A DNA stretch of 64,000 nucleotides, from NCBI RefSeq assembly GCF_003439925.1, contig NZ_QQRR01000002.1, positions 1-64,000 of the forward strand. Direction: 5' to 3'. This document shows, piece after piece, positions 231 to 33,186 of this stretch (position 1 is the first letter of the stretch; each line of letters starts with the position of its first letter). Origin of the DNA: Haloprofundus halophilus (lineage in GTDB: Archaea; Halobacteriota; Halobacteria; Halobacteriales; Haloferacaceae). The notes beneath the pieces are model-generated. The model did no database searches, was not told the origin of the DNA, and saw only the letters and a list, made by a program, of their open reading frames with translations. Position numbers and translations under genes: made by a program.

Positions 231-306
231 GCCAAGGTGGCAGAGTCCGGCCGAACGCAGCGGCCTGCAGAGCCGCCCATCGCCGGTTCAAATCCGGCCC
301 TTGGCT
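231..306 (+). tRNA. tRNA-Cys (GCA)
   Basis: The acceptor stem gccaagg pairs with ccttggc, followed by U as discriminator, which is typical for Cys. The anticodon loop ctgcaga carries GCA and the T arm is cgccggttcaaatccggc. A TATA-like ccttaagcgg sits about 28 bases upstream (198-207), so it may also be transcribed on its own as well as by read-through from the rRNA operon. Confidence 0.95.
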
Positions 307-617
307 TCTCATCGATTCGTCACAACGTCCACAGAAGCGACCGCGACTCGTACCGTCAGGTACCGTCGCCGGACCCGTTTTGGTCGCCCTCACTCGTGCT
401 CGACGTTATCCGGGACGTAGTCTGAACTGCAGCCGATCCGTCCACACCCAGTTCGAGAGAGATCTTCGAATGCTACTGTAGTCGGTTTCTGTCTGCCAAC
501 TCTCTAACCCCTCGAAGGGGTCGTGGGGGCCGCCGACGTGGGTCGGTCTCCGTCGGGACGTCCCGTTTGTCTCCGTGATGCTTCCGATTTATATCAGGTG
601 GTGCGGAATGGCCTGCT
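307..617. other. intergenic region, rrn operon to sensor kinase
   Basis: About 310 bases without a convincing gene. The reading frames here lack haloarchaeal codon bias. The only signal I see is the TATA box just before the kinase gene; the rest is featureless. Confidence 0.6.
587..595 (+). promoter_or_regulatory. TATA box of the LOV histidine kinase gene
   Basis: The sequence atttatatc is centred about 27 bases before the ATG at 618. That spacing places transcription start at or next to the start codon, as in leaderless haloarchaeal genes, and supports this start. Confidence 0.6.
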
Positions 618-2870
618 ATGACGACGCCTCCGCTGAGTGAACTGGTCCCGTTCGGCGCCGAAACCCGGCCGACGAGGGTCCTCCTCGTGGACGACGACGA
701 GGAGGCAGTCCAGACGTCGGCGGCGTTTCTCCGGCGGGAACTGGACAGCGTCGAGACGACGGCGCTCACCGACTCGACGGAGGTGCTCGAAGCGCTGCGA
801 CACGAGGAGTTCGACTGCCTCGTGAGCGATTTCGATATGCCGGGGGCGACCGGCCTCGAACTCCTGCACGAGATACGCGAAGCGGGTATCGAGACACCGT
901 TCGTCCTGTTCACCGGAAAGGGAAGCGAGGAGATCGCGAGCCAGGCGATAACCGCGGGCGTCGACGAGTACCTTCAGAAAGGCGGTCCGGAGGTGTATCC
1001 GGTGCTCGCCAATATGGTGGAGAACCTCGCCGAGAAACACCGGGCGGAAACGTTGGTCCAGCGTGCGTTCTTGGCGATCGAGTCGGCGGAGGAAGCCATC
1101 GGAATCGTCGACGAGAACGGCGTCTATCGGTATCTCAACGAGGCGTACGCCGCGGTGTACGACCACACTCGCGCCGAACTGATCGGTCGGCACTGGGACG
1201 TGTTGTACGACGAATCGGAGGCCCGGCGGTTTCACGACGAAATCCTCCCCGAACTCGAACGGCGGGGGACGTGGCGCGGAATCTCGACCGGGCTGACGAA
1301 AGAGGGAGCCCCGGTCCCCGAACGGCTCGTCCTCACACGGATGGACGACGGCGGACACGTCTGCATCGTTCGGGAACTCGCCCGCGACGGCGAACTGGAG
1401 GCGGAACTGGCGCTCAAGACCCGAGCCCTCGACGCGGCACATCTCGGTGTCGTCGTCACCGATGCCACCGCGGAAGACAACCCCATCGTCTGGATAAACG
1501 AGGGGTTCGAGAACCTGACTGGGTACGGCCGCCGGGAGACACTCGGCCGAAACTGTCGGTTCCTTCAGGGGGAAGCCACCGACCCGGAGACGGTAGCGGA
1601 GATCCGGCGGGCGATCGGCAGCGAGGAGGCGATTTCGACGGACCTCCTCAACTACGACGCGAGCGGTGACCCGTTCTGGAACCGGCTCCACGTGTTTCCC
1701 ATCGAGGACGGCCACGGGTCGGTCACGCATTTCGTCGGCTTTCAGGAGGACGTGACCGAGCAGAAGCGAAACGAGAGACTGCTGCGCGCGAGCACGATGC
1801 GGCTGGAAGCGCTGTTCGAGCACTCGCCGGACATGATCGCCATCCACGACGCCGACGGGACGATACGCGACGTCAACGAGCGAATCTGCGAGGAGCTGGG
1901 CTACACCGAAAGCGAACTCGTCGGGAGAGCGGTCTGGGAGATAGACGCGACCGCCGACTCCGAGCGTGCACGGCAGTTCTGGGCGGCGCTCCCGACGAAC
2001 ACGCCGCGCCGCTTCGAGGGGGCGCTGGAGCGACGAGACGGGACGACCGTCGCCGTCGAAGTCCATCTGATTCGCCTCGAGCTCGACGGCGAGGACCGAT
2101 TCGTGGCGATGGACCGAGATATCGGCGACCGGAAGGCCCGCGAAGCGGCGCTCGTCGAACAGAACGAGCGGCTCGACAAGTTCGCGAGCGTCGTCAGCCA
2201 CGACCTCCGAAACCCGCTGCAGGTCGCGCAGGGTCGACTCCAGCTCCTCGAAGAGGATTACGAGAGCGAACACATCCCGCACATCTCGCGCGCGCTCGAC
2301 CGGATGGAGGCGCTGATAGCGGATCTCCTCGCGCTCGCACACGGCGGCGAGGCCGCGATGGAACTCGAACGAATCCAGTTGTCGTCGCTCGTGCGGGCGT
2401 GTTGGGAGACGGTCGAGACGGCGGATGCGACGCTCGTCGTTGACGCCGACGGCCACGTCGAGGCGGACCGAGACCAGCTCCGGCAACTGTTCGAGAATCT
2501 GTTTCGGAACGCTGTGGAACACGGTTCCGCAGGCAGTCGGCCCGCGTCCGACGACGATGTCGAACACGGCTCGAACGACGGGTCCGAAGCGGCTGACGAC
2601 GATGCCGACCCGGTCACCGTGCGGGTCGGCCGAACGCCGACGGGCTTTTTCGTCGCCGACGACGGGCCCGGCATCCCCGAGGCGATGCGGGAGGAGGTGT
2701 TCGAGGCGGGCTACTCGACCGCGGCGGAGGGCACAGGGTTCGGACTCAACATCGTCGAGCAGGTTACGGAGGCTCACGGTTGGCGAATCGACGCCGTCGA
2801 GAGCGACAGCGGCGGTGCACGTTTCGAGATAACCGTCGCCGCCGACGGCACCAGCGACGCTCCCGAGTAG
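618..2870 (+). CDS. LOV/PAS sensor histidine kinase with N-terminal receiver domain
   Basis: 750 residues, predicted soluble. Order: response-regulator receiver (about 20-135; acidic DDD cluster, phospho-acceptor Asp71 in SDFDMP, late Lys in YLQKGG), PAS (about 150-260), a LOV-type PAS (about 270-390), another PAS (about 395-515), HisKA with His528 in SHDLRNPL, and HATPase with N box ENLFRNAVEHG and G boxes DDGPGIP and GTGFGLNIV. The second PAS has the flavin-binding signature GRNCRFLQG with Cys313, plus FWNRL and the late Gln in FVGFQEDVT, so it probably binds flavin and senses blue light (family knowledge). The ATP domain carries a low-complexity acidic insert. No transmembrane segment and no response regulator gene is adjacent, so the output partner is unknown. 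A TATA box at 587-595 fixes the start. Confidence 0.9.
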   Translation: MTTPPLSELVPFGAETRPTRVLLVDDDEEAVQTSAAFLRRELDSVETTALTDSTEVLEALRHEEFDCLVSDFDMPGATGLELLHEIREAGIETPFVLFTGKGSEEIASQAITAGVDEYLQKGGPEVYPVLANMVENLAEKHRAETLVQRAFLAIESAEEAIGIVDENGVYRYLNEAYAAVYDHTRAELIGRHWDVLYDESEARRFHDEILPELERRGTWRGISTGLTKEGAPVPERLVLTRMDDGGHVCIVRELARDGELEAELALKTRALDAAHLGVVVTDATAEDNPIVWINEGFENLTGYGRRETLGRNCRFLQGEATDPETVAEIRRAIGSEEAISTDLLNYDASGDPFWNRLHVFPIEDGHGSVTHFVGFQEDVTEQKRNERLLRASTMRLEALFEHSPDMIAIHDADGTIRDVNERICEELGYTESELVGRAVWEIDATADSERARQFWAALPTNTPRRFEGALERRDGTTVAVEVHLIRLELDGEDRFVAMDRDIGDRKAREAALVEQNERLDKFASVVSHDLRNPLQVAQGRLQLLEEDYESEHIPHISRALDRMEALIADLLALAHGGEAAMELERIQLSSLVRACWETVETADATLVVDADGHVEADRDQLRQLFENLFRNAVEHGSAGSRPASDDDVEHGSNDGSEAADDDADPVTVRVGRTPTGFFVADDGPGIPEAMREEVFEAGYSTAAEGTGFGLNIVEQVTEAHGWRIDAVESDSGGARFEITVAADGTSDAPE

Positions 2871-2956
2871 CGACCGTCGTCTCCGCGGGCACCGGCCCCG
2901 CGTTCGTCGATTCCTCTCGCGCCGACCACCGCGTTGCGGGTCCGCGAAAAGTAATT

Positions 2957-9964: not shown

Positions 9965-11062
9965 ATGGACGAACGCGTACGCGAGCACGCCGAGGTGCTC
10001 GTCGACTGGAGCGCACGCATCGAGGCCGGTGACGACGTCGTCGTCAGCGTCGCCGAGGACGCCCACGACCTCGCCGTCGCCGTCGCGGAGAAACTCGGCG
10101 AACGCGGGGCGAACGTCGTCACCCTCTACGACTCCGCGGAGGTCTCGCGGGCGTACCTGAAGAGCCACGACGGCGAGTTCGACGAGGACCCCGCCCACGA
10201 ACTCGCGCTCCTGGAGAACGCCGACGCGTACCTCCGCCTCGGCGGCGGGCGGAACACGACCGCGACCGCGGACGTGCCCGGTGAAACCCAGCGTGCGTTC
10301 GCTCGGGCACGCGAAGGAACCCGCGAGGCCCGCATGGACACCGACTGGGTCTCCACCGTGCACCCGACGCGCTCGCTCGCCCAGCAGGCCGGGATGGCCT
10401 ACGAGGAGTACCGGCAGTTCGTCTACGACGCCGTGCTCCGCGACTGGGAGGCGCTGGCCGACGAGATGGCGCAGATGAAAGAGGTGCTCGACGCCGGGAG
10501 CGAGGTCCGCATCGAGAAGGAGCAGACGGACCTCACCATGTCCATCGAGGGGCGAACCGCCGTCAACTCGGCCGCGTCGGTCGCCTACGACTCGCACAAC
10601 CTCCCCTCGGGCGAGGTGTTCACCGCACCGTACGCCACCGAGGGCGAGGTGTTCTTCGACGTGCCGATGACCATCCAGAGCAAGCGCGTCACCGACGTCC
10701 ACCTCACCTTCGAGGACGGGGAGGTCGTCGACTTCGACGCCGGTCAGAACGAGACGGTCCTCGCGGACATTTTCGACACCGACGAGGGCGCGCGCCGCCT
10801 CGGCGAACTCGGCATCGGCATGAACCGCGGTATCGACCGCTTCACCGACAGCATCCTCTTCGACGAGAAGATGGGCGACACGATTCACCTCGCGGTCGGT
10901 CGCGCGTACGACTCCTGTCTCCCTGAAGGCGAGTCGGGCAACCAGTCGGCGGTCCACGTCGACATGATAACCGATATGAGCGAGGACTCGCGACTGCTCG
11001 TCGACGGCGAACTCGTCCAGCGAAATGGACGGTTCCGGTGGGAAGACGGCTTCGAGGAGTAA
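9965..11062 (+). CDS. M29-family metallo-aminopeptidase
   Basis: 365 residues from the ATG at 9965. It matches the aminopeptidase T/S (M29) family: N-terminal segment ERVREHAEVLVDWS, and a C-terminal metal centre with TEGEVFFDVPM, GARRLGELGIGMN, SILFDEKMGDTIHLAVG and SAVHVDMI..M. Family members are cytoplasmic aminopeptidases with two metal ions. The last ten codons are part of a 103-bp repeat that recurs downstream, so the stop codon region has been duplicated. The first copy has tttttt shortly after the stop, which could serve as a U-rich terminator. Confidence 0.92.
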   Translation: MDERVREHAEVLVDWSARIEAGDDVVVSVAEDAHDLAVAVAEKLGERGANVVTLYDSAEVSRAYLKSHDGEFDEDPAHELALLENADAYLRLGGGRNTTATADVPGETQRAFARAREGTREARMDTDWVSTVHPTRSLAQQAGMAYEEYRQFVYDAVLRDWEALADEMAQMKEVLDAGSEVRIEKEQTDLTMSIEGRTAVNSAASVAYDSHNLPSGEVFTAPYATEGEVFFDVPMTIQSKRVTDVHLTFEDGEVVDFDAGQNETVLADIFDTDEGARRLGELGIGMNRGIDRFTDSILFDEKMGDTIHLAVGRAYDSCLPEGESGNQSAVHVDMITDMSEDSRLLVDGELVQRNGRFRWEDGFEE

Positions 11063-11371
11063 CGGTCCCACGTTTTTTGGTGCAGATTTTTGCCGAGCGA
11101 GCGGAGCGAGCGAGGGAAAAAGGTGCAACGGACGATTCCGGTGGGAGGACGGGTTCGAGGAGTAACGGTTCCACGTTTTTTGGTGCAGATTTTTGCCGAG
11201 CGAGCGGAGCGAGCGAGGGAAAAAGGTGCAACGGACGGTTCCGGTGGGAAGACGGCTTCGAGGAGTAACGGTCCCACGTTTTTTGGTGCAGATTTTTGCC
11301 GAGCGAGCGGAGCGAGCGAGGGAAAAAGGTGCAACGGACAGTTCCGGTGGGAGGGCGGGTTCGAGGAGTGA
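11027..11371 (+). repeat. 103-bp tandem repeat crossing the aminopeptidase stop codon, 3.3 copies
   Basis: Stop codons of successive copies fall at 11060-11062, 11163-11165, 11266-11268 and 11369-11371, exactly 103 bases apart. Each unit holds the last about ten codons of the aminopeptidase, the stop, cgttttttggtgcag, an inverted gccgagcgagcggagcgagcgaggg stretch and an A-rich end. Units differ by a few substitutions, and copies 1 and 3 resemble each other more than they resemble copy 2. The final copy is cut after the stop. Confidence 0.95.
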
Positions 11372-32759: not shown

Positions 32760-33186
32760 GGCAGAGAGAGCCCGACCACCGTGACCCACGGCGCGCTCGC
32801 GCGCCGCCGGGACATGAGGAAAGTCCCCCCACCGTCCGAACAGGTGACCGGGCGCAAGCCCGGAGTCGGAGACGGCTGGCTCTGGAACAGAAACGAGACC
32901 CCTCGGTCCGACCGATGACGTGCGCGAATCCGACCGTAAGGGAGGAGAGTTAACCCACGGAGGGTGCGTGGCGACTCCGTCGCCACGTTTAGCGCGAGCG
33001 GGCCTCGCCCGCTCGCGCGACGACCGAGAACGGATGGAACGGCGAAACCTCACCGGTGCAAGTCCGCGCCACGCGGCCGACGCGGCGCGATTCGTGCGTC
33101 GCCCGGCCGCACGGTAGTTCGGACGACGGACGCGGACGCTCAGCCGAATGTCGGGACGAACAGAAGGGGGCTTACTCCTCTCAGCC
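32760..33186 (+). ncRNA. rnpB: RNase P RNA
   Basis: Recognisable by the core gaggaaagtcc (32816-32826) and the matching 3' core acagaagggggcttac (from 33160), which form helix P4 and flanking conserved regions. The 5' ggcagagag pairs with 3' ctctcagcc to form P1 (one A-A mismatch), fixing the ends at about 32760 and 33186. The length of about 427 fits archaeal type A RNase P RNA. A middle stretch aaacgagacccctcggtccg and gtgcaagtccg are also typical. It processes the 5' ends of tRNA precursors. Lies between AMMECR1 and the P-type ATPase. Confidence 0.93.

Follow-up and report, generated by a model that had tools for sequence, protein, structure and literature searches.

The window analysed here is a stretch of 64,000 nucleotides from Haloprofundus halophilus, and it opens with a 5S rRNA (1-122, Rfam RF00001, 90.9 bits), the 3' end of an rRNA operon, followed by a tRNA-Cys (GCA; 231-306, found by ARAGORN and Rfam), both on the + strand. 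The gene of interest is thus placed after an rRNA operon, which ends with 5S rRNA and tRNA-Cys in congeners too. This gene, hereafter the window kinase, runs on the + strand from the ATG at 618 to a stop codon that ends at 2870, and encodes a protein of 750 aa with the architecture REC-PAS-LOV-PAS-HisKA-HATPase. A predicted promoter lies upstream, with a TATA-like TTTATAT at 588-594 (+) whose first base is exactly 30 bases 5' of the ATG. The congener G002 has this same TATA-like element at equal spacing (CTTCCGATTTATATCA versus CTTCCAATTTATATCA), and this conserved distance suggests that the transcript is leaderless and driven by an archaeal-type promoter. An antisense ORF of 727 aa (594-2777, - strand) covers nearly the entire gene; all domain matches of the stretch 618-2870 fall on the + strand and none on the strand of this ORF, which probably results from codon usage at high G+C. 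Elsewhere in the window, a near-identical peptide, MHLFPSLAPLARQKSAPKNV, recurs several times on the - strand at 10842-11371, just past an M29-type peptidase gene, and may mark tandem or dispersed DNA repeats. An archaeal RNase P RNA is found at 32760-33186 (+; Rfam RF00373, 136.5 bits).

The domains of the window kinase follow one another in the order REC (residues 21-121), PAS1 (about 150-255), LOV (275-381), PAS3 (about 395-506), HisKA (519-575), and HATPase_c (617-741). Pfam recovers Response_reg, three PAS stretches, HisKA, and HATPase_c, all exceeding the curated cut-offs. The protein lacks a hydrophobic span (the maximal 19-residue Kyte-Doolittle mean is 1.14) and is acidic, with 20.7% Asp plus Glu and 1.1% Lys, which fits the expectation for a haloarchaeal cytosol. 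A preliminary description of this DNA had called it a soluble LOV-type histidine kinase, and its coordinates and key residues (C313, D71, H528, FWNRL, and the distal Gln) are all exact. The assignment itself is backed by the sequence, with a full set of flavin contacts and no hydrophobic span, and supports a cytoplasmic LOV-type histidine kinase.

The LOV domain (1440-1760, +) includes the Pfam PAS_9 stretch at residues 280-381, and the putative adduct cysteine, C313 (1554-1556), lies within GRNCRFLQG at 310-318. The flavin contacts are Q317, N345, N355 (in FWNRL, 353-357), and the distal Q376 (in FVGFQEDVT). This segment aligns with 4GCZ, a YtvA-FixL chimera (domain E 2.5e-31). It also matches dozens of further LOV structures, among them 2PR5 and 1N9L, from phototropins, aureochromes, and bacteria. 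Together with the Pfam domains above their cut-offs, this structural match rules out a chance occurrence of the motif. FMN binding and a photocycle in up to 3 M salt have been demonstrated for the haloarchaeal LOV domain ALovD-1 (PMC12202551). From C313, the residues Q317, N345, N355, and Q376 are spaced +4, +32, +42, and +63, which is identical to the spacing of the ALovD-1 counterparts (C46, Q50, N78, N88, and Q109), and the four contacts also align in register with YtvA. The LOV signature that had been recognized from the letters (GRNCRFLQG, FWNRL, and a Gln inside a PAS cassette) is therefore borne out by the PAS_9 and 4GCZ matches and by the ALovD-1 register. The NCBIfam models YtvA_fam and BluLightHisKinLov match the LOV part only, and the whole-protein equivalog cut-offs are missed, with 169.8 of 250 bits for the YtvA family and 157.4 of 450 bits for the blue-light-activated histidine kinase. 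An AlphaFold prediction of the LOV domain from two sequences was poor, with a mean pLDDT of 54.8, and the pocket was therefore assessed solely by alignment to homologues.

The flanking PAS domains are PAS1 (1065-1382, +; Pfam PAS stretches), which is without the LOV motif, and PAS3 (1800-2135, +; Pfam PAS stretch). PAS3 is closest to the solved PAS domain of a Haloarcula Htr-like protein, 3BWL (E 1.3e-38, residues 380-502), in whose crystal indole carbaldehyde was trapped fortuitously (PMC3726324). The HisKA (DHp) domain (2172-2342, +; Pfam PF00512, 2.5e-12) carries H528 at 2199-2201 in the H-box SHDLRNP, in which H528-D529-L-R-N532 forms an HDxxN motif. In HisKA proteins, this motif suggests kinase as well as phosphatase activity, and we accordingly read H528 as suggestive of both an autokinase and a phosphatase function. 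The HATPase_c catalytic domain (2466-2840, +; Pfam PF02518, 9.5e-18) has its N-box at residues 627-636, G1 at 681-686, and G2 at 705-710.

The receiver (678-980, +; Pfam PF00072, 3.3e-20) has all of its phosphorylation residues, namely D25, D26, D71 (828-830, in SDFDMP), T99, and K121, and it is the sole REC of the protein. In a classical hybrid kinase the REC is C-terminal to the kinase; the window kinase instead has the layout of archaeal REC-HisK proteins, in which an N-terminal REC with a phosphorylatable Asp is followed by PAS/GAF and then by HisKA-HATPase. The preliminary description had placed this receiver at the wrong end, a view that falls because the N-terminal position is the rule among archaeal REC-kinases (445 N-terminal versus 53 C-terminal; PMC5847659), and its position as an unusual feature was dropped. 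Archaeal kinases with an N-terminal REC were earlier proposed as relay intermediates (PMC5847659). The accompanying suggestion that the protein receives phosphate as well as sending it is plausible by sequence, since the phosphorylation residues are complete.

The stretch between the tRNA-Cys and the downstream gene (window 306-2937; L126, L127, and L128) varies within the genus, as it holds the LOV kinase in two genomes, a short spacer in two, and other genes in one. In G002 the order of tRNA-Cys, LOV kinase, and downstream gene is kept. In G001, G003, and G004, the tRNA-Cys and the downstream gene are present and the kinase is missing between them; the gap between the aligned blocks is about 170 bp in G004, about 420 bp in G001, and about 2.2 kb, with other genes, in G003. 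The G001 spacer contains a short frame resembling the C-terminus of a histidine kinase (E 0.002; 1 of 500 shuffles was equally good), which is a hint, and no more, at loss rather than gain of the kinase. Among the first loci examined, the tRNA-Cys neighbourhood of the kinase is found in G002 only, and in other genera the gene lies elsewhere. No response regulator gene adjoins the kinase in the part of the window that was read, and the loci examined in relatives yielded no conserved neighbourhood pointing to a partner.

Of the 292 genomes of the class that were searched, 261 contain LOV-like domains at E 1e-20 or better, a threshold that by itself is no proof of an intact flavin site. We defined a closer family by the REC-PAS1 part and read 37 of its sequences, which were sampled by similarity to the window kinase, so that counts among them are not frequencies. 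The preliminary description had looked to haloarchaeal homologues with an intact Cys for support, and such proteins with the order REC-PAS-LOV-PAS-HK are found in G002 and, beyond this congener, in further genera and families of haloarchaea. The relatives take five forms: LOV-PAS3-HK as in the window kinase; LOV fused directly to a different HK; REC-PAS-LOV without a kinase (e.g., L059 and L100); a LOV-less REC-PAS1-PAS3-HK; and a two-gene form in L083 and L098, with a REC-PAS-LOV-HK gene followed, with a 4 bp overlap, by a PAS3-HK gene, as if the modules of the window kinase had been spread over two genes. L083 and L098 come from genomes of different families and share about 11 kb of DNA that is 97.8-99.3% identical and contains both of these genes as well as one that is TnpB-like; this near-identity would reflect recent transfer or contamination. 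Among viruses, 22 pattern matches yielded no confirmed LOV relative, and a scan of named genomes gave a single protein bearing the LOV motif, L009 from halophilic archaeon J07HX64.

Of the 37 relatives, 19 have a complete flavin site, 14 have an altered one, and 4 lack the domain. The six residues of the site behave in a nearly all-or-none manner, with 6/6 in 19 rows, 5/6 in one, and at most 3/6 in the rest. It is important to note that the altered group is mixed: in G099 the distal Gln alone differs, so that flavin binding may be retained, and in G118, G122, G123, and G127 the third domain has no LOV motif and was perhaps never a LOV domain. The four LOV-less relatives form one clade; in one of them, G006, PAS1 continues directly into PAS3, and about 136 residues of the window kinase have no counterpart there. 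On a tree built from REC-PAS1 alone, the intact state of the flavin site changes about six times. The full set of REC phosphorylation residues is retained by 34 of the 37. Light input is thus not essential for such proteins, as LOV has been repeatedly lost or altered among close relatives. Within genus g28, the stand-alone REC-PAS-LOV proteins (L085-L091 and L059) form a series in which the flavin site is intact at one end and lost to varying degrees further on, with Q317 replaced by Y, H, or S, N345 by T, S, or I, Q376 by H or Y, and Cys by Tyr; the dN/dS of their LOV part is raised.

Between the window kinase and G002, the whole-protein dN/dS is about 0.21, which indicates a real gene under purifying selection. 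Over the LOV part the value is 0.14-0.15, with synonymous sites near saturation, and over REC-PAS1 it is similar (0.15-0.19). Against the more distant G066 and G017, LOV dN/dS (0.35-0.42) exceeds that of REC-PAS1 (0.22-0.25). In stand-alone relatives with altered sites, LOV dN/dS is usually raised (0.25-0.71, versus 0.07-0.52 for REC-PAS1), and in the stand-alone set of one genus it is usually 2-4 times the REC-PAS1 value.

A LOV search of the genome identified two clear LOV proteins, the window kinase and L074, and two weaker PAS matches with 28-32% identity. L074 (6902-8956, - strand; contig C2 near 1116901-1118955) is a Bat-like regulator of 684 aa with the architecture PAS-LOV-GAF-BAT-HTH_10 and an adduct Cys in the motif GQNCRFLQG. 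No rhodopsin was detected in the genome, whose assembly is rated 99% complete, and the same search was positive in 18 of 25 relatives, G002 among them. The genome also encodes one FAD-binding protein of the photolyase/cryptochrome type. It has 11 matches to REC and 16 to HATPase, and not all of the HATPase matches are kinases; four short REC frames of 182-252 aa are candidate partners of the LOV kinase.

Haloarchaeal kinases that combine REC, PAS, or GAF domains with LOV have been described in 2014 (PMC4844311) and 2025 (PMC12202551), and those proteins, including the Lake Diamante set of the latter, likewise have a complete flavin site, REC/PAS/GAF domains, and a C-terminal kinase. ALovD-1, from Halonotius, holds the middle position among the three PAS domains of a kinase whose full-length homologue has 726 aa, a likeness judged by the LOV domain and its description; the motif Phe, canonical in the window kinase, is Tyr in ALovD-1. 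The archaeal REC-HisK class shares the N-terminal REC, at least one PAS, and the C-terminal HisKA-HATPase (PMC5847659), whereas in the window kinase one PAS is LOV. Bat and LOV-BAT-HTH_10 regulators also carry a LOV-like domain in a haloarchaeal multi-domain protein, but their output is DNA binding, and the BAT and HTH_10 domains present in L074 are absent from the window kinase according to Pfam. Bacillus YtvA and the FixL chimera 4GCZ have the same LOV fold and flavin contacts. YtvA ends in a C-terminal STAS domain, and the chimera places a HisKA kinase under the control of LOV; the window kinase differs from the chimera in an extra PAS between LOV and kinase and in the REC-PAS1 part before LOV. 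The alphaproteobacterial Brucella LOVHK and Caulobacter LovK have the same succession of a blue-light LOV and a kinase, but these two use HWE-type modules, unlike the HisKA with N-terminal receiver found here.

We consider it likely, with a probability of roughly 80%, that the window kinase is a soluble multi-input haloarchaeal REC-(PAS)n-HisKA kinase that has a photoactive LOV as the second of its PAS-like domains. In favour of this reading are the domains and residues, the homology to solved LOV photoreceptors, the ALovD-1 register, the nearly all-or-none flavin site, the intact REC sites, the constraint on LOV against G002, and the two LOV proteins of a genome in which no rhodopsin was detected. 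The repeated loss or alteration of LOV in close relatives, the lack of an adjoining response regulator gene in the part of the window that was read, and the higher LOV dN/dS against more distant relatives speak against it. The gene, its domains and residues, and their conservation and distribution are observed; flavin binding, the photocycle, the sign of the response, the partner, and the physiology are the parts that we infer. FMN bound to LOV would absorb blue light and form an adduct from C313 to C4a, N5 would be protonated, and Q376 would flip. The resulting strain would travel via the helix after the DVT motif through PAS3 to the DHp helices and would shift the autokinase/phosphatase balance of H528. 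The receiver would act as a second, separate input, with D71 phosphorylated by another kinase or by H528 and setting or gating the activity, and the expected target of the output is one of the small number of further response regulators in the cell.

The receiver part of this reading has a rather unlikely alternative, compatible with a LOV photoreceptor, in which the REC serves H528 of the same molecule as a phosphate sink or relay partner, in the manner of hybrid kinases, and is not an input for another kinase. Its intact site, the excess of HATPase over REC matches (16, some not kinases, against 11), and the scarcity of free receivers would suit a role in cis; however, L059 and L100 keep REC-PAS-LOV without a kinase, so that the REC is useful with no kinase in cis, and C-terminal-REC hybrid kinases are rare in archaea (PMC5847659). 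We regard it as improbable that LOV binds flavin mainly as a redox or flavin-state sensor, with blue light incidental. A Cys-less haloarchaeal BAT-LOV does respond to chemical reduction and photoreduction (PMC4682037), and archaeal REC-PAS kinases are regarded as intracellular sensors (PMC5847659), but C313 would be dispensable to a domain that senses redox state alone, and the Cys, both Asn, and both Gln are retained together in the window kinase and its nearest relatives. That the light input is vestigial here and that REC and PAS3 drive the kinase, as in some relatives (14 of 37 altered and 4 of 37 LOV-less), is very doubtful, given a complete site and a LOV domain as constrained as REC-PAS1 against G002.

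In the photoreceptor kinase preferred here, the blue-light LOV module and the N-terminal REC are both usual for the group; what is modestly new is that the light sensor has repeatedly been lost or altered next to a receiver that stays conserved. In the literature searched, only one isolated canonical archaeal LOV domain has been characterised (PMC12202551), and for none of the archaeal LOV kinases is a light-regulated activity, a target, or a physiological role known. We tentatively propose that the phospho-receiver may be the constant core of the REC-PAS1 family and light a replaceable modulator, with LOV repeatedly inactivated or cut out and REC, usually together with a kinase, retained; the intact version in this genome, where no rhodopsin was detected, might then respond to the coincidence of blue light with a phospho-signal, a reading that we hold as a possibility rather than an expectation. 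Natural versions of almost the same protein, with the light sensor intact, broken at the flavin site, or deleted, are ready-made controls, and they make both the light control of archaeal phosphosignalling and the role of the N-terminal receiver directly testable.
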